Shown here in pieces: positions 6,175 through 21,149 of a stretch of DNA of 40,247 bases (its first letter is position 1; the number at the start of each line of letters is the position of its first letter). Location of the stretch: assembly GCA_001574975.1 (NCBI GenBank), contig KQ965756.1, forward strand, positions 348,864-389,110, in the 5' to 3' direction. The position numbers were made by a program, and so were the translations under genes. The DNA comes from Gonapodya prolifera JEL478 (lineage: Eukaryota > Monoblepharomycota > Monoblepharidomycetes > Monoblepharidales > Gonapodyaceae). Under the pieces are notes generated by a model, which made no database searches, was not told where the DNA came from, and was given only the letters and a program-made list of their open reading frames with translations.

Positions 6175-7507
6175 TCAATTCTCCATTCGATCCATCTGCG
6201 CCACAATCCTTTCGATGCTCTCGTTCATCACTCTTTCCCTGGCCTCCTTGGCCTGCCGCTTCCGTTTCGCCCGAAGACGCTTCTGCTGCTCGACCCAGCG
6301 AGAGAACCAGTACAGGTGAAGAGGGAGAACGACGGCAGGGAGCGGCCACACTTGAGGAAGAGCGAGGCGATGCGATGGTTAGTGTGTGAAGGGGGCCGTC
6401 GACCAGAAGACCAGAACAGCGTACCAGTCATTCCCACGTCCAGTTCCACGGCCATGCTCCAGCACAGTGCCGCGTGCAGCGCGACGCGTGTTCCGAAGTA
6501 CGTTCCCCCGAACAAATAGTCGCGGCGGAATCGTTTGTCAAGCTGTCCGATCGCCATGATCAGCGTCGGAAGTTCGAGAAGACAGAAGGGCAGGATGCAC
6601 GCGACGAGGCCGTGGTATACAGCGAAGGAGAAGATGTACGTGAAGAGCGCGTGATGAATGTAGCCGGCGAGAAGGGTGATCTGACAAAAGAGGTGTGACA
6701 ATTTCAGCCGTGTCAGAGAAGAGAGCGGCCGGGACTTGAGCATACCTGGCTCCGATAGTACATGACGCCGATAGCGATGTCGCACCACATGTAAGTCAGA
6801 AAGTAGATAGCGATCCACAGGGAGAACCTCGATGCTCCAACGATCGGCCACCTTTCAGTCCGATCGACAGGGTAAAGTACAGTCACATAGACGGAAAAAT
6901 TACTCTTAGAAACGTTGGAGTCTTTGGCGGAAGCAGAAACTCACCGCGCCATGTCCCATCTGTAGAAAGTCCAACCAACGAATCCCACGAGTCCCGCAAC
7001 AGTCATGACCAGGCTGGACAGAACGGTCAAAATCCAAGACGTCTTGCGCTCGAACGAGTTGTCGAAATTTGGGTCAAAGTCCAGGACTTCTGGCTTCGCT
7101 CCGATTTCATCGACAGTGGCAGGGGTTTTGCCTCCATCCAGCTTTGCGTTCATCATCTCGCGCTTCCTCCGCTCCACCACCTTCTTCTTGCGGCCAATCC
7201 AAGCCTTTCTCACTCGCAGGAATATGTAAACTTGGATGAAGATAAAAGCGGCGACGGGTTTGAGGAACGACGGATGGGTGACCACCTCCGCCACAGAGTA
7301 CGAATGAATCTGACTCGGAAGAAGGCGGATGGATCCTCCCACGGGGCAGGTTACGTCCGCTGGCTCGGATGGGACGAGAGGGGACGCGGTGTGAGAGGCG
7401 CAGGAAACATCGGAGCCGTTCCGCGCGATGGCAGGAGCATTGGCAGGAAGCGGGTACTTGGGAAAGCGAGGAAGAGATGTCGGGTGGTGTGGTCGCTTTC
7501 GTGCCAT
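6175..7507 (-). CDS. TLC-like multipass membrane protein
   Basis: Four exons on the minus strand: 7507-6945, 6851-6746, 6680-6425, 6350-6175; 366 aa. The start is the ATG at 7507 (MARKRPHHPTSLP) with a purine at -3. The N-terminal quarter has one hydrophobic segment (VAAFIFIQVYIFL), a basic stretch (RKKKVVERRKRE) and a second helix before RWDMA. Further helices contain YFLTYMWCDIAIG, GYIHHALFTYIFSFAVYHG and CILPFCLLELPTLIMA. The His-His pair followed by LELPT is what TLC (TRAM/LAG1/CLN8) domains show, so I call it TLC-like. The C-terminus is a basic cytosolic helix (EQQKRLRAKRKRQAKEARER). TLC proteins sit in the ER and act in ceramide synthesis, lipid sensing or membrane composition; I cannot assign a reaction. 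Introns are 74, 65 and 93 bp with consistent phases. Confidence 0.75.
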
Positions 7508-8175
7508 CTCCCCGAACGAAAGGTATCGGATTGGGTTGTCCAGGGTGGTAAGTGGCAACACAAAAAAGATACGGCTCAACTATCGAAACAATCGATGGAA
7601 GGGATCTCGCGGGAGTTTTCTTCAGCAAAAATCCAACTGCTTTGACCCACTTTGAGGCAGAACTGTCGGTTTGGACTCCGGAGAATTGTGGGAGGGTTCC
7701 CTCCGGGCACGTGCCATGCGCTCCTCCATACCTTGCCGATGTTCCTCTTCAACACTGAAAGTTCCATCTCTTATGGTCAACTGTAATTGTGTCTGGTGTG
7801 CCGCGGCAGTCTAATACCTTGAATTACAAGGTGCAAAGAACAAGTCCGTCCCGCAACGGAACAAGCCCGGTGTCCGGCTTTTAACAACGACAAACATTTT
7901 CCTAATATGTTGTATCTTCGTTGCGAGCCCGGCTTCACATGCGAGTGCGGGATCGAAGGAACAAGGGGTGCCGTGTCCTAATGATCGTGCCTGGCACGTT
8001 GCGCAAAGATTGGGAAATTGCGAAGAGATTTGGTCACTGAAAAGACTCATTCACGCACACTCGCTCACTGACCATCAAGACTCGCTCCAGAGAGAACGCG
8101 GGACGCTTTCAAGAGACGATCCAGCGAGCTAGAACCAACAACCGTTGCACCGACGCACTTCGACGCTTACTTCAG
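7508..8175. other. Divergent intergenic region
   Basis: These 668 bp separate the minus-strand TLC-like gene from the plus-strand hypothetical gene starting at 8176 and must hold both promoters. A GTAAGT-like site at 7549 and short open frames are present, but I see no convincing exon, RNA gene or named regulatory motif. Confidence 0.5.
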
Positions 8176-9250
8176 ATGCCCTCAATTTGGGAGCTGGGGC
8201 GATATACGCTGCTTGTTGTTTTCCTGGGTGGAGCGCTGTCTGATGTGGAGTTCGGAATTCCTGGTTCGTTGACAGACTTGACTGCAGGTTCCTTACCACC
8301 GCACACTACAGGCAGTAACACCGACTTCTTCTCATGATTTAGTATGGCCCTGTACTACTCTCCTCCTGCTAGAGCCTCTGTATCGCCTGTACGCATATTG
8401 GAACCTGCAGCGGGCTTGGAAGGCTAATGTGCTGTCATCGCCCACCACGATAAACATCATAAATCCTGATACAACGACACCTGAGAAAAACCATGGCCGA
8501 GAGCGAGACACCAGTGCCACACAAATGGACTTACAGTCTCTAAGACGGCGATTTTCAGATGGCCTTGGCGGACGACCTCTGAACTCTCTGCGAAACCAGG
8601 AGCCACCTTCGTGGCGCGATTCGTATCCCACAACACCGCAATCTCTAATCGACGACTCGAAAAACTTCGATCTCCCCTCCATCAACACCCGTCGCATCCG
8701 CACATCATCCTCCAGTCCCCTCGTCAGCCCGAGCCCACAACGGATAAGCGACTCCCCTACATTCGCAACATCCCGCCTTCCTCGCGATATTCTCACCAAC
8801 TCCCCACGCCTCTCCCCTCGCATTCTCCCCAACTCCAACTCGCCCCGCCTCTCGCCTCGCATTCTCCCCTCGATAACTTCACCCAAACTCAGTCCCCACC
8901 TGCGCCCATCTACGCCATCCGCGCTCGCACCCGACGGTCTGGACATCGCTCACCACGAGCCCCAGCTCTTCTACCTCGGCCGACCTGCATCGTCGGGATT
9001 CGCGCCGCTCGGCAATCCCGACGCGATGGTGGATGCGTGGGATGAAGACATTCAAAGGGTCAGAGACGTGCTTGAAGCCGGGAGGGCTGTTGGTGTTCGG
9101 AATCGAGAGGGATCGATCGCTGGCGCTGGCTCGAGCTCGGGCTTCGACGGTAGTGGTACTCTCGATGCGAAGAGGTTCGCCAGCGCGGTGCCGATGACGC
9201 CATCGACAATGATGGGGATGCCGCTTTCGGCGACACCTGTGGCGGTATAA
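8176..9250 (+). CDS. Membrane-anchored Ser/Pro-rich hypothetical protein
   Basis: Two exons, 8176-8263 and 8343-9250, giving 331 aa. The N-terminus (MPSIWELGRYTLLVVFLGGA) is a hydrophobic helix able to act as a signal anchor. A second hydrophobic stretch follows just after the intron (WPCTTLLLLEPLYRLYAY). The rest is long, disordered and cytosolic in character, dominated by Ser, Pro, Thr and Arg. It contains an internal repeat, SPRLSPRILPNSN / SPRLSPRILPSIT / SPKLSPHLRPST, around residues 185-235; these SP sites suit proline-directed kinases. I do not recognise a family. The single 79-bp intron keeps frame exactly. Without the first exon there is no good ATG for the downstream frame, which supports this two-exon model. 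Confidence 0.65.
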
Positions 9251-11144
9251 ACTACGATTGAAGAAAGGAGCTCGCACTATACACTGTACAATTAGAATGT
9301 AAAATTTTGGATGATGTTATGTTATAAAGTTATGGAAGTATTTACATTCTGGGCTGGAAAGCTGAAGAACGTCAGATAAACACCTTCTCAGACGGCGGTA
9401 CCAATTCTACTAAAAAAGGGAACTCAAAAGAATGACTTCAAGGAGACAGCGCCAATCTGTCATTCCCAACTCTCACTTGTCGCGCGAGCACTCGCAACGG
9501 CGCGGTCCACCTTCGCACCTGTAACTGTCACCGTGACACCCGTTCTTCCTTCCTCCGATGAGTTTATATCCACTATGCTCGGCTACCAACCAGTTGCCAC
9601 GACAACCTGTAGGGCATTTCGTTGTCTTTTGTCAGAGATGCGCTAGCCGTCGGTGCTCTCTCTGCTCAACAGCACTTCTTTGGGGGAAAAAAAAAAGACC
9701 AGGTACCGGCTTTCATTCTTTGCGGCTTGTTTCCAGTGTCCCTAGGGGCATTGTCCTTGAGAGGGCTTTCAGTGCTTGCTTTCGATTCTTGTCGTTTTTC
9801 GTCTTCAGTGAGAGCAAGACTCCTTGGGAAGGGATGACGGCTGGAAGCGCCGCAACTTGATTGGGAGCTGATGAGCCAGCCTCGGCGGGGAGGTGGGTTG
9901 AGCGGCGGATGAAGTTTGTTGGTTGGACATCTTCCGCCTGAGAACATTGTCTGGGACCGCGTTGAAAGAATAGTCCAGCCGTTGGGCGCCAGAAAAGGTT
10001 GATGGCCAACGTTCCCTTTCCGCGTCTGTCCCAACGTTCCCGACGGCAAGCGCCACGAGATCGGGAGCGATGAGCGCTCCCGTGGTGGGAGCGGTCAAGG
10101 ATGGGACGGGAGCACGCGTAGCAAGGGTGGAGGGCGCCGTCGGGACAAGAAAAGAGCTCAACGGACCCTGGGTGGTTGTTGGAGGAGCCGGGTGACAGGA
10201 CGGACGTTGATCGGGAGAACACGGGGGACATGGGGGAGGACTGTGGTCGTGTTCCACCCTGGCCATTTGAACGTGGGTGACTGGAAAGATTGTCTGGCCC
10301 CCTCCCTCCAACCGGAGTTCCCATCGGGCGTCAATGTCGAGCAAAGGCAGGAGAAAGTCTCTTTGGCGATTGATTCCACCGGAGAGTGTAACGGTGGGAG
10401 ATCGGGGAACGGGAACGGAAACATAAAAGCCGAGCTGCCTTATCGTTATCATGGCATTACCGCAAAGCATTTACATCAGTCACAAGATAGATGGGGCGCT
10501 TTGCCTGCGGTGGCTAGCAGTCATCCGCGCTGTGCTGTGGATCATAAAATAAATCCACATATTTGGCTTCGTACGTCGACAATATGTATTTGCCACCTAG
10601 AAAAGTGCGACGGACGTCAATCTCCGTTTGTGAATGCTACTGCGTTGAGGGGGGACGAGAGCACGGTGCTGTGTTGCAGAAGAGGGAAAGTGTGGCCGAC
10701 AGTCCTTCCTCCTTGAGTGTCGATATTCTCGAGGTGGTTAATTGAGCTCAGAATCCGCAGGAGAGACCCGCAATGAGGGGAAAGAGCCGCGACAGGAAGC
10801 ACGAGACTAGTTCAAGTACTCATAGTCTTGCGAAGTGCAAAGCGACCGCGAAGGCGGACAAGAGACAGAGTTGAGAGTCGTCGCAACTCGTGTTGGTCTC
10901 TCGACTCGGGATACAAAAGTCATAAGAGCCAAGTTACGACGACAAGACTATTTCGCATGGCACGGTCTTCACATCTTAAACAATACAATAGACATTCATT
11001 GCATGGGAAGACCTAAAAACCTCCCACCAAATCATGCTGTGCCAAGATGATTATAAATAAAAAGGGAACAAAACTGCTCTCTATGATGGACTGAACCGTG
11101 CCAGCCGATTGCCCCACCATCTCTGCATATCACATACAATACTA
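9251..11144. other. Intergenic region with no established gene
   Basis: These 1.9 kb lie between the 3' ends of a plus-strand gene and the minus-strand DUOX. Several frames stay open for 200 codons, including two overlapping minus-strand frames. One plus-strand frame at about 9622-9837 reads like protein (rich in Ala, Leu, Gly and Phe) and is preceded by an acceptor-like TTTTGTCAG at 9635, but I found no start or partner exon. Real small or spliced genes may be hidden here. Confidence 0.4.
9805..10470 (-). CDS. Possible hypothetical protein (weak)
   Basis: An open minus-strand frame of 221 codons; a likelier start is the in-frame ATG at 10452 (MITIRQLGFYVSVPVPRSP). The first 75 residues have mixed hydrophobic and charged composition like folded protein; the rest is Pro/Ser/Thr-rich. 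No family is recognised. A second minus-strand frame of similar length (10324-9713) overlaps it, so openness alone proves little. Confidence 0.25.
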   Translation of the reverse strand: MLCGNAMITIRQLGFYVSVPVPRSPTVTLSGGINRQRDFLLPLLDIDARWELRLEGGGQTIFPVTHVQMARVEHDHSPPPCPPCSPDQRPSCHPAPPTTTQGPLSSFLVPTAPSTLATRAPVPSLTAPTTGALIAPDLVALAVGNVGTDAERERWPSTFSGAQRLDYSFNAVPDNVLRRKMSNQQTSSAAQPTSPPRLAHQLPIKLRRFQPSSLPKESCSH

Positions 11145-14100
11145 TCACCTGCCAAAAAACTCGCCAAAGTGATGAAGATAGCCATGACCCTGCTGTTCCC
11201 TGTTGAGCTCCGCGCACGCCAAGGCGATGCCGTCCATCATGACCGCTGCGCATGAAAAAGAGTTGAGGCATCAGTGGCATCCACTGTTGTTACATCGACA
11301 ACTGCATTATTTCGAACTCACCTGGTCCGCAGGAAAATACCCCGATATCCTTGCCTGGAACGGGCACCTGGTCGCTTTCGCTTGCAGGTGCTGGGCTGTG
11401 AATCTCACGTATCTCGCGGAACAGAGTGTCAAATGATGGGCGACCAAAATGAGTGCGAGAGCGGAGGCCCGTGAAGAGAGATTTTCCATTCATCCGTTCG
11501 AAGGAACGCTCCGTAATCTGTCAGGCACAAATAGATGTTAGATAGCGAAGACTGGTACGACCGTACGTCCAAAAGGATGTAATACTTACGTAAAGCATAG
11601 TCGTCTGCAAGTCGTATTCGCCGGCGATTGCAGTGATAAATATGTGTGTCTCCAACACCCGATTCACGTCGCGTTCCTCGAGCTCTTTGATGACATCTAC
11701 CATCCATTCAAACTGCTTTTGGCTCCGGGTGATCCAGATGAAGTACGCCTTCCGAATTCGCTGCTGTGCCAAGATGCCCGGGGCAATGTTTCCATTGAAA
11801 ACGAGCTCCTTCATGATACTCGCGAATGGAGTCACACCAATACCTGCCGGGCAGTTGATCAAATCCGAGTGAGGTTGCACGGCACGCGTGGAGGGGCAAA
11901 CGCGAGTTGTTACCCACCGCCGCCGACAAAAACCGCCACAGGGTACCGAGAGTAATCCCCAAAACCACCTCCGAAAGGCCCATCAATCAGCACACTCCCT
12001 TGGTTGCTGGCCCAGATCCGATCCCGTAATTGCGTCGTCCACGGTCCAACCGTGCGCACGTGCACAGAGAGAAACGGATCGTTGGGTGCCGAGCTCAGTG
12101 TAAACGGGTGGAACTCTTTAGCAGAGATGTCGGGGATAGACATGCGGAACCACTGGCCCGCTTTGTATTCGAAGTTTGTCGGCTTCTTAAGTTTCAGAAA
12201 GGTGACATCAGAAGGAAGGAGGGCAGATTCCAAGATAGCAACTTTGTAAGCACGCCGCTGAGCACTGAAAACGGAGTCTAATCGATAAACGCTGCGAACA
12301 AAAGTTCACGTCAGAAGCAAGGTGAGGAAGAGAATAAAACGATTCCTTACACTAATGGAATCAGAATGAAGTACCAGAAGTACGGTGGCTGAACAAGCTG
12401 CGCTGCTCCGTGAACGCACATCGCGAGATACCAAATGGGATGAAGTTGATGGAACATCCAAAATACAGTGAACGCGTTCCGGCGGACGTACTTTGGTGTT
12501 TGTGATTGATCGATTTGTCAAAATTGCGTTCGACCAAAAATTTTGGAGACTTCCACACTTACGTTGTGTGAAAATGTATATATCAGTATCATGAGGATCA
12601 CTAAGACGATTCCAGAAAACCCTGTCACCGATTGCCAACAATAGTAGAAATAAGACAAAAGCTCGTCGGAGTGGTGATAGACGTCACGGAAATAGCAGAG
12701 CATATCGTCCGAAGACTGTGTTGAGAGATTATAGAAGCTGCAAACGCAACAGAAAGGTTAACCCTATACTTGGGAGTGCTCCACGAAGTCCGATACTCAC
12801 TTGAAAAAATGTCCAACGATGTGGATTAGCGACATCAATAGCCCAGTCAAAGCTACAGAATGTAAGTTTGAAGCGTCAAGCCGGACTAGTGACTACATCA
12901 ATACATCTGGCAATATGACATACCAGCGAGAATATGGAATTGCAAATGAGAATCAAAGGGAATGAGTTCGACGAGCCACGTTTGTCGGAGCCAAACAATA
13001 GTGTTTTGACACCTCCAACGAATAACTTTTTAGTTTCCTGGCGCAAAGGATTGCAAGTGCCTTCTCGTGCTTCGGTGAAAACTTACATTGAAAGAAGAAC
13101 CCAGGCATATGCCCACATTTGACCAGAAGCCGCACCTCGGGTAACTGAGCACGACATCACATTAAGACGACAATCAGGAACCCTGCACGTAATCAGTGAA
13201 GACGGAGGCTCACTTGAAACACCAAATCCCGTAATCTGCCGCAAACCGCCATGCTCCTTGTTGTAGTAGTAAACATAAAAACGCTCAAAAAATATCCCTA
13301 CGGTGGAGAGAACAAACAAGAGAATGAATAGTATCTCCCTCCTCTTGTTCGTGAGATATGTCCTCCAATAAGCCAAATTCGATCGTCTTTCTGATGATTC
13401 ATCAGCCCCAAGTTGACTCCTCATCAAAACTTCGGTGACTGTCCTTTCCAAAGTGCGAGTCTCCGGTAAGCGAAACGAGCCTCGACGCGAAATGGACCTC
13501 TTCAGAGTAGAGAGCCCACGGGAGACACTTTGCGAAAGCCTGCGATTTCTAATACTTGAGGTGGGTGGTTGGTCGAGCATAACGCTTGTGGTCGACGAAA
13601 GACGCCCCAACTCTATAATCTGTGAGGTCGAACGATGCACCAAAGGAAAATCAAATGACTCTTTCGCCGGCGATAGAGGAGAAACTGCAATGTTGGTGCT
13701 GTCATTCAGAGCAAACTTTGGCGTTTCTGTGATGGTAAGAATAATGTTTTCGCCAAACACGTTCAAAGCGTGTCGGAAATCTTCGAATGACATCCGCTCG
13801 GTTGAGCCACCTCGATGGCGTTCGATCTCCTCCCACCACGAATCCACCACGGCAGCAGAAGCATCATTTATAGCTTCGCCACCCACTTCCACTCCAGTAG
13901 ACCCATCGTTCAGAAGAGACGTGAGCATCGTAACGAGTTCTCCCCGAGAGAGCATTCCATCGGCATCAAGATCTACACATTGGTCGTTGTGAGACCACGA
14001 TTATTGGTGAAGTTAATCTACCAAACTTACCGTGCAAATCAAACAACAGACGGATTTTCGCCTCGACATTCCCGCTATTAAAAATGACCATCATATCTAG

Positions 14101-17100
14101 GAGCTCCGTAAATTGTGCGTATCCGTTTCTATCCCTGTCAACTCGATTAAATATTTGCGTAGCGAAAAGTGAATGTTTGTCGATACGGAATGCCGCAGCA
14201 AACTCGTCACGGGAGAGTTCGGCTTGAGCCAGTCCACCAACGGCCATGGCTCCATTTGAAGACTTGGTCCGCTCCTTCCACCAGCTGCGATCGGTAGTGC
14301 CTGTGACCGAATCACCCTTCTGCGGTGCAACGATATGCGCTTCGGAAGTGCGCCATCAAGCAGTTAATAGTAAACGTTGAGGTATCGCTCGTCCCCACTT
14401 ACCTATCTCCCGGAAAAATTGTCCAATCGCCGTTGTCCACTGCGCCCGGCTGACGAGTTCGGTTTTCAGTTCGCGGTGTGACCTCAATACAACTTCTGGG
14501 ACTTTCGATAGCCCAGCTGTGTCAAGCAAGCTCAACAGTCGGTGGATAAATTCATCGCGCTTAGCAGCATCGGAGAATCGGAGCCAGATCTGGTGATTTG
14601 TAAACAAATAATCAGGGCTAAGTTCGGTAAATCAATAAGTGGTAGAGCCACCCACATCATACTCCTTAGGCACTTTAATAACAACCTCCGGAACCTCCGG
14701 ATCTGCGCGGCTTCCAACCAAAAGCCACTTCCTCCGTGTGTAGCCCCACGAGTTGACGTTCCCTTCTGGTTTTGTTGGGCAGAGCTTACCCTGCATTACA
14801 TCCCCAAAACGCTCGTACGGAACGTCCCGAAGAACTTTGCCAAAATCATTCGGCTTAACGAGCCGGATCTTGTCTGCCATCAAAATGGCAGCGATATCAG
14901 TTCCCATCGACAGGTCTACTGAGTCAGGTTGTGGCGTTTCTCCATTTGTAGTGGTGATCGCAGTGGGAACCCTCCCAGCAAACTCTGTTGCGAAAAATGT
15001 GTCAGTCAAGTCTCCTCCGGCGGACTCTCGCACTTCGATCCGTTCCTTTCGAGATTGGTCTTCCACCATCTTCCTGCGAGACTTGGCATTCTTGATAAGC
15101 AAGCTCCTCCACCACTTCGCGAGCGGAACAGTAGCTAACGCCAAGAGAGCTAACATCAACGAAGCGACGATGACCGCTGTGATTTGATACCCAGATAGCG
15201 TCAAATAATCAAAACGCTGCGGAGGTGTACAGATAGAGTCCACTGCATCGGTCCCATTGATCTGCCCCGGTTGATGACAATAGAACTCGCTTGGTGGCGC
15301 GTGCCACACGTCTTGTTGAAGCGCCCAATCTGGTATCCCAGTGTTGCGAATTATGATGGCCCTCATCGAATTGTTTGAGCTGCGAATGTAAGCGATCTCG
15401 GCGGGCGTGAAATATCCAGAACTAGGGTTCGCAAACCAAAAGCGGTCAGCGTCGCGGATTCGAGTGAACTGATCGGTGAGTACTCTAAATTACAACAGCG
15501 CGAAGTCAAATTTCATCGAACAGACAATTGTAGTTCAACTCACGCAGCAAACAAATCCCCCATTTCACCACCCGTCGTCTCCAGCAGCCCTCCAACCCAA
15601 ACGTCAATGTCGTTCAGGTTCCCGCCGTATAGTTCTTCCATCCGTTTCGCGACTGGTTTAATGCCATTCACAGGTACGTCCCAGTCACCAGTAATGTTCT
15701 GGAAAGACGTTATAGTTGCGAGATTGAAGAACCGGCGTGCGGTGTTGTAGTCGGGGAGACCTTTGCATATACGAATTCTTGTGATGAGTTTTCGTCATCG
15801 AAGCCGGTGATGTAGCACCACCGCACCTTCTTCCCTCCCCCTTTGAATGTTAATCGCCATTAGATCTCGCCGTGACATCTCCAAGGGGCCATAAGCAAAC
15901 CCTCTGAGATCCTCGACGACTATATTGTCTTCTCGTTCTGTGATCTGCGCCGTCATTCCCAAAAGGAAAGCATCCAAGTCGGTCTGGCTACCATTCACAA
16001 AGGCGCCGTTAAAGGCGTTATTCGAGGCGATATTGCTCCAAGAGAACGAGGCATTGGCGAGAAAGTCGCTCATGGTATTTGCACCCAGGTACTCTGGGTC
16101 GGATAGAATAGAAATCAGAGGGGTATCTCAGCACTAGGTTTAGGATCGCAGGAAGCTCACCATTCGGGTTCCAGTAACTGTTACATGTACGGAAGGTCTT
16201 TCCGGTCAAAAAATGACAAGAGCCTGCTAGACCAGCAGTCGAGTTATTTGGGTCTGCAAAGCCAACCGTTCGCCTCCATACGGCAGGTGGGACCAACGTA
16301 TGACCATATCTTAACGGGTCGAGGATGTTGAGATGATTCCGAGATCAGTGTCGAGTTTGAAAACTAACCTCATCGCGGCAGCATGGAAAATGGTAGCGAT
16401 TTGAGGATGGCTACGAGGATCGTAGCCCTTGTACGATGGAAGTTGACGGCCTGTGAACACGGGGAACCATTCTTCGGTGACAACCTGTGAGTTCGAAGGA
16501 CATAAGAACGGTCACGACGAAGACAGTCGAATATGACGCTGTGTTAGTGCATTAACGCATTCCCATAACAAATGATCCTGATTACCTTTTGGTAAAGTGC
16601 AATGACCCATCGTCTGGCCTCATTAAAAAGACGTTCATCGTCCCAATCCGGGTGAAGCACTTTCAACCGAGCAGCTTGGAAATTGTGCTCTCGGAACCAC
16701 AAAGTGCCCATGGAGAGTAGCATCGGGGTCTCGCTATTTGTTAGGCGAAGGTATAAGCAAAGTGATCCTTGGATATAAATAGTGAACAGTCCAAGAACCT
16801 ACTTTCCTCTCGTGTTACCTTGCCGGTGGCTGCGAAAAGGTGATTTGAGTACATGGTCCCTAGGTGGCGCGGGGTTCGCCAAGGGCAGGCCACCGTTGTT
16901 GAAGGCGGGGAATTTACCAGAGTTGTCGGCAAGAAGGGTGCCGTTGACATGTGAGCGGAGTGCGTTGGACCTGGAAGTTATGGGAGTATTACACGCGAAA
17001 AAAACGTGTAGAGTGGCAGCGATAACAGTTGAACCCCGTCAGCAGCGCATGTGGGTGCAGACGAGTCTGTGCATTCACTCACCACACTCGCGACGTCCCG

Positions 17101-18790
17101 TACACCACACCCCCATCAATCCACGGTGTGATCTCGTTCATCTGCGCCCTGCGAGAGTTGATCGCAAGCCCCGACGCGGCGTCGTATCGCGTGCGGGCGA
17201 GAGGAATGATGGTCTTGCCGGTGCCCGTGGGGTCAAACAGAGGGTCGCCGGCGGGAATGGCGATGTTGAAGTGGTCAATAGGGCAGTGTGGTCGTTGGGT
17301 GTCGACGATTTCGTGCACGACCTGCTCGGCTGGAGAGGTGTACATGTCGTTGGGAGGAGAAAGGTGGGTTCAGAAACGATGGAGTGAGAGGGAGAGACGA
17401 ATGCATAAACGATGCTAGCGTATGCATTCTTTTGCCTCCTGGGGGAAAGTTCCGACCACATTCCGTGTTGTTCACATCTAGCTTCCGTTCAATCAATCCT
17501 GGTCGTCGCACTCCACAAACTCCACCCGAAAGACATCAATGGGCTTCTGTGGCTCACCAAAGAATGTCATAAACACCGTCTTCCCTTTCGCATTCCCGAG
17601 TCCGGATTGCCCTCCCATGAGTTCCAACGAGAGTGTCCTGGGGTTGGGCCGGTCCGCACCTGCTGGCGCTTTGACGCCATCTGCATACTGCGATGGGGGT
17701 AGGTGAAGCATGGGGGAATCGACAGAACCCTAAAGGAGGGACATTGTTAATAAACTTGGCAACGACTTGCGCTTTATCGGGCGGATGACGGGAGGCCTTC
17801 CATCAATCGAGCAACATCTTCCACTGCAGCTCCGATGGCCGCGCTGGAGAGGATCTCTCAGTAAAAGCATCGATGCGCTTCCCTCGGTCCTCTCAGCACA
17901 GAACGGGAGATCACAAGCACGCGACGCAATTGTATAGACCCCACTCTCCGCGACGATGGATTCGATGCGCATTTTTTGCTGAGGATCGTGACGCGTGTCC
18001 AACTCACAAGACTCGGTAACGCAAGATTATTGTAGAATCCATCCCAAGGTGGAAACTCCCGCCACGGCTCATCATCGAAGCGATTGTCCGATGGTGCAGG
18101 CGGGAAAGCGACCACGAACGTATTCGCGATGCCAAACTTCGAGCTGTTGATTGTTGTGCCGGTGATGCCGTTGTTTGGAGTGACATTCAACGTGTTATTC
18201 CCGCTTATAAGAGCGACTTGTGCCGTGGTCGTTGAAGTCGTTGAAGCTGTTGAAGTTGTTGACGATGAGGAAGAAGACGCGATGGTGGTGGTAGCGAGCG
18301 GGAATATTGTTGATTTGGTGACTTTTGTCGTGGTCGAGGCCATAACCGATGTGGTGGTCCCTTCTGTAGGGCCCATCCCCGGTTCCCAACTGAAATGTGA
18401 CATCTCTGGAGTGGGAGACATTGGCGCTGAGCCCTCAATCCAGACGCAGTCGCCGGGTGACTTGAGCGGACGGCTTTACCTGTGTCTGGCGGCAATCTCC
18501 CGGTTGGTTTTGTGATACAGGGTTTTGCACGTCCCTTTCCCCCCTTTTTCTGGGATAGGAAACCCCTGGCGGGCGGACATTCGCCCCGTCGTCCACCACT
18601 GGGATGGGACCAATTCTGCTCTGTTTTGAGTCTGTAACTCCAATTAACTTACCGTACAGACACTCTGAGATTTGTAGCAAAGGCCGTAGAGAGTGTGGGC
18701 AGGTGGCGCAGTCTTTGTTTTGGTACAGTGTCTGTCAGGTTTGAGGGGAGTCACAATAGTTGTCCCGATCAGGTAACATACGGAGAGCAT
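11145..18790 (-). CDS. DUOX: Dual oxidase: haem peroxidase + EF-hands + NADPH oxidase
   Basis: Minus-strand exons: 18790-18653, 18631-18480, 18389-18008, 17729-17558, 17329-17083, 16970-16803, 16733-16586, 16484-16369, 16309-16161, 16093-15827, 15760-15544, 15484-14656, 14589-14403, 14339-14031, 13972-13214, 13144-13087, 13012-12924, 12852-12801, 12737-12563, 12490-12351, 12291-11918, 11843-11590, 11517-11322, 11245-11145; 1,892 aa. Order: short secretion-like start; Ser/Thr-rich stalk (about 100-150); animal haem-peroxidase domain (about 190-720) starting [16 protein letters not shown]; helix 817-841; PH-like region to KEYDIWLRF; EF-hands 1125-1136 and 1161-1172; Ser/Arg-rich linker; six-helix ferric-reductase core with haem ligands His1459, His1473, His1552 and His1565; FAD motif HPFTLSSAP (1646-1654); NADPH motifs GGGIGVTPF and CGP (1857-1859). 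The enzyme moves electrons from cytosolic NADPH through FAD and two haems to O2 outside, making H2O2 on calcium binding. It is divergent from DUOXA, its maturation partner. The two N-terminal exons are the only uncertain part. Confidence 0.93.
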
Positions 18791-18969
18791 TGAGACCGGT
18801 ACGAGCCTTTCCCTGAACCTGACCTGGGTCTGGGACCACGCAAAGAGCAACGAATCTGCTGCGTGCGACATCCAGCAGAGAATCGCGGGGTTCGCGTTGC
18901 TGTGTATCCGTCTCAAGCACCCAACCACTGTACGGCGGCCAGTACCGTACCAACTCCACTAAGTACGGC
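18791..18969. promoter_or_regulatory. Shared bidirectional DUOX/DUOXA promoter region
   Basis: Only 179 bp separate the proposed DUOX start (18790, minus) from the DUOXA start (18970, plus), so both 5' leaders and core promoters must fit here or overlap the genes. The sequence holds GTACGG at 18930-18935, its reverse complement CCGTAC at 18945-18950, and a second GTACGG at 18963-18968. Together they form a short inverted repeat plus one direct copy. No TATA box is evident. The boundary depends on the DUOX N-terminal model. Confidence 0.6.
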
Positions 18970-21149
18970 ATGTCAATATTCAGCGTGCTCCCCGCAGATT
19001 CTTCCGCATTCGGTCTCTTCCGTGAGCCACCGTGGCCTTCGGTGTGGCCCGCCGATGTTACACCATGGCGTAAGTTCTTCAACCCTCTTCGCCGGGTGAT
19101 CGACTGACCCCTAATGGATCAAAATTTGGACATAAACCTGCGTTCCTAGAATTCTACTATGAGGGAGTCACGATAACTTCGGTTTACGTGTTGATCCTGT
19201 GTGCAGCGCTGGTTTCGCTCCCGACATTCAACTATAAGATTCCTGTGAGTCGTCCATAATTGCAAGGGCGCCGCCACTCCTTCTGTGAGCGACACTAACC
19301 AAGCTCCTTTCGACTGGCCTGGCTCACTCCAGCGCACACGAAATGCCATCATCATCTTTTTCTGTGCCCTTTACATCTCGTACGCCATTGTCCCCCTCGG
19401 CATCTTCGGGTATTCTTGGTGTACTGGCACCATCGATTCACGCATGCCCCTCGCGTATGGCTCCCAGGGATTGGAGGTTCGAGCGAGAGTGGGGGTGCAT
19501 ATCGGGGTCCTTGGTGTGAATATCACCATGGAAGGTACGTGTTGGGCAATAAGATCACAGCGGAAGAACAGATCCGGATGTTGCCGGGGGCTTTCTATCG
19601 TACGTGGTGCATTCAATATTGCTGTCCCATCACGCCCGCAGGCCTTCCAGTGAACCAACAGAACCGTACTATCTTCTACAACGAGCATTTCTCGTGGTCA
19701 GATCCGTGGGGTCAAGGTCGCGTCGGGTTCGGCAAGTGCGTCTTTTCACGTGTCGTACTGTTCCCCATCAATTACTGACCAGATTTTAACTTAACTTTGC
19801 CGTCCTTCCGTGCACACACAAAGGTACGGAAACGTGTTCAACCGTGGCTACCGAGAACGGCAAATCCACGGTGTACCGACGCCTATCCAATGGGTCGCTG
19901 AGTACTTCACGTTGGACGGAGAGTGGGTGCGCTGGGGCAGGAACTATGCCAGGGGGGCCCACTACACTTTCGAAATGCTAAGGTAAGTTGGGTTCACAGG
20001 GAAGCTGGCCATGACAGCTCGTCGGGCTAGCATCTGATCACGCACTTCGATCCCGCCTCCTGGTAGAGTCTCTACCGGAGGTCTCATCATCGTGTTCGCC
20101 ATATACTGCGTCGGCGCCTACCACATCGGCGCCTGGCTCACCTTCGTCATCGGTGCCCTCCTCATCGCTTCTATGGCCACCTTCGCAGCGTATGCCGGTC
20201 CTGTGTGGAACCTAGAACCATTGATCATTCCTTTCAGGGACGGTAACCTGACATGCTCGCATGGGGCGAGTTTTTGGAACGTTGTGGCGGCGGGAATTTT
20301 ATGTATGGTGGGCAGTCTGGCGTCCACTGGTTTCGCTTGGGGCGGGTGAGTGCATATCAAGAGTTCGCAACGTGTGTGCATCTCAAGTAAACCATTTTTT
20401 TTTGCTCGTTCAGCGCCTTTTATACAGAAGACTGCGACGAAACCGCCGCATACAACACATTTCCCATGGGCCAGAGTAACGGACCCAGGCAGTCCAAGGA
20501 TGCAAAGCCGTCAGAAGGTTCCAGCTTGGAGCCCAAACCTATTACTCTCCACAAATCCTCGACATTTACGGTACATGCCTCCAATAAACCGCCTTCCCCA
20601 ACAAACAAACGCAACCGTGGGCGCGCACCACCACGTCTGGCATTATCCCGTTTGCTATCTCGTTCAAACACTTCGAGGCCCGTCACTTGGGGACCCTCAA
20701 GCTTCAGATCGAAAAGGAACTCCTCGGATGTCGACCAGGATGTGATAACACCATCCACGACGACTCCTGAGGATACGCAACAACGACTGGGACTGGAGCA
20801 CCTCTTGGTACACAAAGAGCAGCGATCAGAGAGGCTTCAAGCTGCGTTCTTGTCGCATACAGAGCGCCGATCACCAGAGCTCCAACCTGCCTTCTTGTCG
20901 GACAGGCCCTTGGAGTCGCTTTTGCTGGATCCAGAGATGCAGCAAATGTCGCCCACTTCTGGACGATTCGAGAGTCAGCTGTACCCATCTTTAAAAGCAC
21001 TTCGGCGGCTGAAACCATCTCCGGAGCCTACCGCCAATCAGTCGTCACCACCGCAGTTTGGATCACCAATATCATACATTCGCCGCGGGTCGCGTGTTCG
21101 GCTTGTTGTGCCTGAAGGGTCTGATCCATGGGAGAGTGGTGACGAGTAG
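18970..21149 (+). CDS. DUOXA: Dual oxidase maturation factor
   Basis: Seven exons: 18970-19069, 19150-19244, 19333-19534, 19642-19735, 19824-19982, 20067-20345, 20414-21149; 554 aa. The plan is that of animal DUOXA: a short outer N-terminus, helix 42-58 (SVYVLILCAALVSLP), helix 70-90, a large extracellular loop, then three helices in exon 6 (about 222-308). The loop carries the most diagnostic stretch, VRARVGVHIGVLGVNITMEG, followed by LPVNQQNRTIFYNEHFSW, with sequons at Asn128 and Asn140, and ARGAHYTFEMLR before the third helix. DUOXA carries DUOX from the ER to the cell surface and remains its partner. The last exon adds a cytosolic tail of about 240 residues rich in Ser, Pro and Arg, much longer than animal versions; its role is unknown. 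All six introns are GT-AG with matching phases. Its promoter is shared with DUOX. Confidence 0.92.

Follow-up and report, generated by a model that had tools for sequence, protein, structure and literature searches.

Two head-to-head DUOX/DUOXA gene pairs in the genome assembly of Gonapodya prolifera JEL478

The stretch of DNA considered here (the window, 40,247 nucleotides in full length, positions 348,864 to 389,110 of contig KQ965756.1 of Gonapodya prolifera JEL478) carries two genes that lie head to head: one for a dual oxidase (DUOX), a fusion of a peroxidase domain with a NOX catalytic core, and one for its partner DUOXA. An initial annotation had placed such a pair in this region, and the stop codons on which it relied, at 11145 on the minus strand and 21149 on the plus strand, were both found. 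A second pair, absent from that annotation, is present on another contig of the genome, C9 (the window lies on C26). Judged from the DNA, the window holds a genuine DUOX/DUOXA pair that is native to a flagellated fungus.

The DUOX gene of the window (11145..18421, minus strand) is modelled with 23 exons and encodes 1725 residues, ending at the stop at 11145. Gene models were made with a small splice-aware gene finder, guided for this gene by tblastn with the C9 copy; GT-AG intron ends are imposed by the finder and thus are no independent evidence. The predicted protein is a full DUOX with peroxidase, PH-like, EF-hand, and NOX parts. Its peroxidase homology domain (residues 126-692; 15307..18046, minus strand, spread across several exons), which is also placed by the tree described below, matches An_peroxidase (PF03098) at 7.8e-127. 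An EF-hand pair (residues 1065-1143; 13767..14061, minus strand) matches EF-hand_7 at 1.4e-7, and both of its loops have an acidic residue or Asn at positions 1, 3, and 5 and Glu at position 12. The NOX core, composed of heme-binding helices and FAD/NADPH domains (residues 1258-1703 by Pfam; 11214..13112, minus strand), matches NAD_binding_6 at 4e-25, FAD_binding_8 at 8.5e-17, and Ferric_reduct at 1.5e-7. All Pfam domains named in the window DUOX and DUOXA exceed their cut-offs, the FAD/NADPH domains PF08022 and PF08030 among them. In the last exon with support from the paralogue, the first in-frame ATG is at 18421 and was taken as the start; the true start may lie in some further upstream exon. 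Together the two window genes are modelled with 28 in-frame introns, 22 in DUOX and 6 in DUOXA. Most (25/28) are 58-112 bp long, while the other three (228, 243, and 278 bp) are all in DUOX. The initial annotation had counted 29 in-phase introns; that the introns are in frame and mostly short is borne out, but the models contain 28, and a 29th would have to lie upstream in the DUOX gene.

The DUOXA gene (18970..21149, plus strand) has 7 exons and encodes 554 residues, consisting of a DuoxA domain (PF10204, 3.3e-44) followed by a long divergent tail specified by exon 7. The conserved part matches human DUOXA1 with an E value of 9.9e-17, and a stretch of the form NIT..G.PV.Q.N.T..Y.E is aligned between them. 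Conservative start codons of DUOX and DUOXA are separated by 548 bp (18422..18969), a probable bidirectional promoter; the corresponding spacing in the C9 models is 594 bp. The figure of 179 bp given earlier rests on an ATG at 18790, within an unproven first exon, and is not upheld by the models. For an exported domain one would expect a further DUOX exon upstream that carries a signal peptide, so 548 and 594 bp may not be the true lengths of the promoter stretches. A promoter motif common to both intergenic stretches was sought and rejected, the best match being 10 bases long with an E value of 0.24. Among viral contigs, 19 pattern matches to DUOXA included no true relative.

Whole-genome searches with DuoxA and An_peroxidase matched only the window locus and one locus on C9, at about 766.9-775.7 kb, where the DUOX gene is again minus-strand and the DUOXA gene plus-strand. 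At the two DuoxA loci found by this search, the genes are adjacent and divergent with a short intergenic stretch. A search with NAD_binding_6 matched both DUOX loci and four further places. The two DUOX proteins are 65.6% identical (1103/1682), and 20 introns have the same place and phase in both genes, out of 22 in the window copy and 21 in the C9 copy. One further intron has the same phase but lies four alignment columns apart between the copies, and one is found in the window copy only. The first six exons of DUOXA are equally long in both pairs (100, 95, 202, 94, 159, and 279). Synonymous distance between the copies is saturated, as NG86 returns no value and third-position identity is 37%; dating of the duplication was abandoned for this reason. 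Duplication together with neighboring genes was rejected, since open reading frames of at least 50 residues within 9.5 kb on each side of the C9 pair gave no match to the window at E 1e-4. Together, the shared introns, saturated silent sites, and differing flanks indicate that the DUOX/DUOXA unit was duplicated long ago and that both copies retained the layout. Because the genome holds two old linked pairs, recent re-linking is unlikely.

Multiple comparisons place the proteins in the DUOX family. The C9 DUOX aligns with DUOX1 in four colinear stretches, scoring 913 bits with the human protein (E 2.5e-273) and 906 bits with the mouse protein, versus 231, 209, and 180 bits for the best non-DUOX chains (peroxidase 8s6c, NOX5, and NOX2, respectively). 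For the peroxidase part alone the scores are 365 bits with human DUOX1 and 237 bits with the best non-DUOX chain, and for the NOX part alone, 466 bits with human DUOX1, 186 with NOX2, and 178 with NOX5. A predicted cytosolic loop ahead of the NOX core, with PH-like and EF-hand character, also aligns with a stretch of human DUOX1. In a peroxidase tree of 46 rows, the two fungal and two vertebrate DUOX lie on one side of a branch with support of 100/99; 39 of 80 bacterial peroxidases were used (two longer than 600 residues were omitted, and the remaining 78 were thinned to every second one), and long branches lead to lactoperoxidase and to Dictyostelium peroxinectin A (PoxA). A NOX tree of 8 rows, rooted on a reductase gene of the same genome (contig C72), likewise brings the DUOX rows together at 100/99 and leaves outside this branch the genome's own NOX, a predicted gene near the window. 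Branches beyond the DUOX rows are poorly supported (55/64 and 59/65) in this tree, which was built without human NOX5 and named NOXA/B/C and in which the Cylindrospermum NOX5 row fills 46% of the columns.

Individual residues agree with this assignment. The four histidines that serve as NOX heme ligands (human H1130, H1144, H1225, and H1238) are present in both fungal copies. In human DUOX1, C118 and C1165 form a bridge by which the peroxidase and membrane domains are stapled together (PMC7794343). Both fungal copies have Cys at the equivalents of C118 and C1165. The C118 place holds Ser in chain 8s6c, Pro in PoxA, and a gap in the lactoperoxidase row; the C1165 place holds Val in NOX2 and a gap in the NOX of the same genome. 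The motif C.F ... R.CNSYW is found in human DUOX1 as well as in the two fungal copies; none of 13 bacterial rows sampled from the 78 has it. Identity of the window NOX half is 41.3% (209/506) with human DUOX1 and 31.7% (139/438) with NOX2. An apparent "DUOX-specific insert" in the alignment was withdrawn, as rows from solved structures have no letters between their pieces.

The peroxidase active site was followed at five places, which we take to be distal His95, Arg239, Glu242, proximal His336, and Asn421 in myeloperoxidase numbering. The window copy has H, R, E, H, N at these places and so keeps all five, while the C9 copy (E, R, E, H, N) has lost one. Three are lost in DUOX1 of both human and mouse (S, R, R, H, C). 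PoxA and chain 8s6c have H, R, E, H, N, and the 78 bacterial rows have H in 76 (with 2 gaps), R in 78, E in 77, H in 78, and N in 77; the bovine lactoperoxidase row is without the distal region. The codon equivalent to the distal histidine lies at 17313..17315 (minus strand) and specifies His in the window copy, where the C9 copy has Glu and human DUOX1 has Ser. Since the five checked residues are kept, the window DUOX may use its own hydrogen peroxide (H2O2), and it may be a working peroxidase. The C9 DUOX, by the same residues, probably is not.

The published surveys found treat dual oxidase as an enzyme of animals and choanoflagellates. The fPoxDB survey of 2014, which covers 216 genomes of fungi and oomycetes, lists zero Duox genes among them and gives Duox only for Metazoa and one choanoflagellate (PMC4029949), and a NOX phylogeny places DUOX with metazoan groups and gives fungi other NOX types (PMC9421330). 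The initial annotation, which knew the pair from animals, is in line with both. Its comparison with the head-to-head layout of vertebrates is apt as to the layout, but this is not a vertebrate peculiarity: DUOX and DUOXA are described as "back-to-back" in sponges, human, and Salpingoeca rosetta, an arrangement said to be older than Metazoa, and as not syntenic in two ctenophores (PMC10282587). Monosiga has been reported to be without Duox (PMC2121648), according to a 2017 study DUOX may have been lost from choanoflagellates and cnidarians (PMC5372347), and the words DUOXA and choanoflagellate are absent from a 2022 survey of animal enzymes of reactive oxygen species (PMC9524095). Among the open-licence literature matches listed, none describes DUOX or DUOXA in a fungus; automatic annotation of the public genome may already name the genes.

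The old linked pairs, the 20 shared introns, the deep branches, and the residues that vertebrates have lost favor an old presence in the fungal line. This same evidence fits inheritance from an ancestor or an old transfer alike. Inheritance of the linked pair from the ancestor shared by animals and fungi seems to us the somewhat better bet. A fuller proposal, which we advance tentatively and with less confidence, is that an operon-like pair came from this ancestor and remained linked through an old duplication, and that the window copy represents the ancestral active-peroxidase enzyme, which both makes and spends H2O2 and perhaps hardens spore, cyst, or zygote walls.

Horizontal transfer of the linked pair from an early animal, choanoflagellate, or other holozoan, followed by duplication and the acquisition of fungal-style introns, is rather unlikely but is the strongest competitor. 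The patchy distribution implied by the absence of Duox from the 216 genomes (PMC4029949) speaks for it, a head-to-head pair could move as one short piece of DNA, and transfers from Metazoa to early-diverging fungi, one with later intron gain, have been reported (PMC11291939). However, the saturated silent sites put any single transfer that preceded the duplication far back in time, and the 20 exactly shared introns require that intron gain also preceded the duplication. In addition, the window copy has none of the human-type losses of the distal His, Glu, and Asn, which disfavors a donor that had undergone them. It is much less probable that DUOX and DUOXA were inherited or acquired separately and became linked in this fungus independently of animals. 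The two ctenophores without synteny (PMC10282587) indicate that linkage can change, but the orientation here is that of animals, and as both pairs share the layout despite differing flanks, any re-linking would have to be older than the old duplication.

An animal contaminant or a misassembled contig is very unlikely to explain the pair, even though the surveys found record DUOX from animals and one choanoflagellate only, because the genome has both fungal and flagellar marker families. Zn2Cys6 domains have 63 matches in the genome, two of them on the window's contig some 290 kb from the pair, fungal chitin synthase has two, both weak, and radial-spoke protein has 8 matches, six within one stretch of contig C3; by these families the host appears to be a flagellated (zoosporic) fungus. 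The pectinase family GH28 has 33 matches, which we group into 13 places, a number close to the 14 homologues published for Gonapodya (PMC4494064); a string search for 18S rRNA gave no match. The pairs sit on contigs of 444 kb and 804 kb, the window-pair introns are mostly short, as given above, and identity to human DUOX1 is about 41%. The neighbors are ordinary genes. Those near the window pair are of the amidohydrolase, MAPEG, MscL, aldo/keto reductase, saccharopine-dehydrogenase-like, and AMP-binding types, and those near the C9 pair encode a WD40 protein, an EF-hand protein, and a sterol-sensing protein of the SCAP type. An animal contaminant is thus rejected by contig context, introns, and marker families, as the initial annotation had argued from the introns. 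That a peroxidase and a fungal NOX were fused convergently, making no true DUOX, has next to no probability: although a predicted NOX gene near the window with a different extracellular domain suggests that fusions may occur here, vertebrate DUOX is the group in which the peroxidase and NOX halves each fall, at 100/99. The fungal proteins also have the cysteine pair, the CNSYW motif, and a conserved middle region in common with DUOX, and DUOXA adjoins.

Several points weigh against an anciently inherited, working DUOX/DUOXA pair of a fungus. Vertical descent would require Duox to have been lost many times, given its absence from all 216 genomes of the fPoxDB survey (PMC4029949), and the DUOX rows of the trees, on which a choice between descent and transfer would depend, cover this fungus and vertebrates. 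The peroxidase tree is itself unrooted, and several rows in it, DUOX ones included, carry a flag for odd letter make-up. The identity of the window peroxidase half to human DUOX1 (41.8%, 207/495) barely exceeds that to the non-DUOX chain 8s6c (38.2%, 168/440). At two further places, Gln91 and Asp94, the window copy has Glu and Val (PoxA has Ile at the Asp94 place). Our alignment puts His at the proximal place in all DUOX rows, unlike the paper on the human DUOX1 structure, in which a heme-ligand histidine is reported missing (PMC7794343); our residue mapping is therefore not wholly in step with that paper. No convincing signal-peptide exon was found in the 548-bp stretch of the window or the 594-bp stretch on C9, the single weak candidate being the one at 18790 in the window copy, and this counts because the peroxidase domain of a DUOX must be exported. 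Use of the C9 protein to guide the window model favors agreement of introns. Finally, the fungal chitin synthase N-terminal domain gave two matches over its cut-off, both weak (1.2e-4 and 5.1e-4).

Human DUOX1 and DUOXA form a 2:2 complex that is activated by Ca2+ and generates extracellular H2O2 from cytosolic NADPH (PMC7794343). The predicted proteins here have the domains and residues that were checked for a mechanism of the human type, save the signal peptide. If the genes are expressed and DUOX is exported, DUOXA would escort it to the plasma membrane, aiding its maturation, and would remain complexed with it. Binding of Ca2+ to the EF-hands would turn on electron flow, and electrons would pass from cytosolic NADPH to FAD, then through two hemes to O2 outside the cell, yielding H2O2. 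In the window copy the peroxidase domain might itself spend this H2O2, for example by cross-linking wall or spore-coat proteins, making the protein a true dual oxidase, while the C9 copy, its distal histidine lost, may only make H2O2. The divergent layout would allow one short stretch to drive DUOX and DUOXA together. Cross-linking roles of DUOX are described for the nematode cuticle and the sea-urchin fertilization envelope (PMC3591440), and by analogy the fungal enzymes could supply local H2O2 and cross-link walls or coats at encystment or zygote formation.

A fungal DUOX linked to DUOXA goes beyond what the surveys found record. If the pair was inherited, then the peroxidase-NOX fusion, the partnership with DUOXA, and the head-to-head layout all predate the animal-fungus split; if it was transferred, then a two-gene redox module can move as a unit. 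The fungus opens a test of what DUOX did before there were thyroids, guts, and epithelia, and of why the pair stays linked. The window copy with its residues kept and the C9 sister with one lost are natural paralogues in which dual-oxidase activities can be compared.

Several other genes were observed around the pairs. Just downstream of the window DUOXA, from 21958 onward on the plus strand, lies the gene of a large-conductance mechanosensitive channel (MscL, 5.4e-17) with the aldo/keto reductase next to it; the gene model fuses the two. On the minus strand, 6175-9463 of the window is predicted to encode a multi-pass membrane protein that matches nothing in Pfam and, by eye, has a TLC-type look. 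The WD40 protein beside the C9 pair has, by eye, an EF-hand-like segment. At G000:C26:336547-341604, about 7 to 12 kb to the left of the window, a 20-exon gene is predicted to encode an extracellular domain and a complete NOX core. It has a likely signal peptide by eye, and its extracellular part, which contains 'MHNPRGSNNKLNEQ', resembles Dictyostelium DD3-3 and has no Pfam match. The fusion is a prediction of the finder, which merged two genes elsewhere. A search of the genome with human NOX2 matched the two DUOX genes, this NOX, and two reductase-type genes (on C72 and C121), and the C72 reductase has all three ferric-reductase Pfam domains. No further NOX was matched by this search, although a missing match does not show absence.

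Among known systems, the fungal NOXA, NOXB, and NOXC have the NOX catalytic core in common with the proteins described here, but they are not known to have a peroxidase domain, and the surveys found list them apart from Duox. PoxA of Dictyostelium (6erc) has the same five active-site residues as the window copy, but its chain is a peroxidase domain only (511 residues), with 31.9% identity (136/427) to the window peroxidase half. DUOX and DUOXA of sponges and Salpingoeca rosetta, compared here by published description, are likewise a linked pair outside vertebrates, but a holozoan one. Closest are the vertebrate pairs DUOX1/DUOXA1 and DUOX2/DUOXA2, which belong to the same families and share the head-to-head layout, with two pairs per genome as here and, in human DUOX1, a domain order colinear with that of the C9 copy. 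The published intergenic distance in human is 135 bp for DUOXA1/DUOX1 and below 0 for DUOX2/DUOXA2 (PMC2871058), whereas the start codons modelled here are 548 and 594 bp apart. The pairs described here differ further from those of vertebrates in their fungal host and in the tail of DUOXA, and the window copy keeps peroxidase residues that are missing from human DUOX1.

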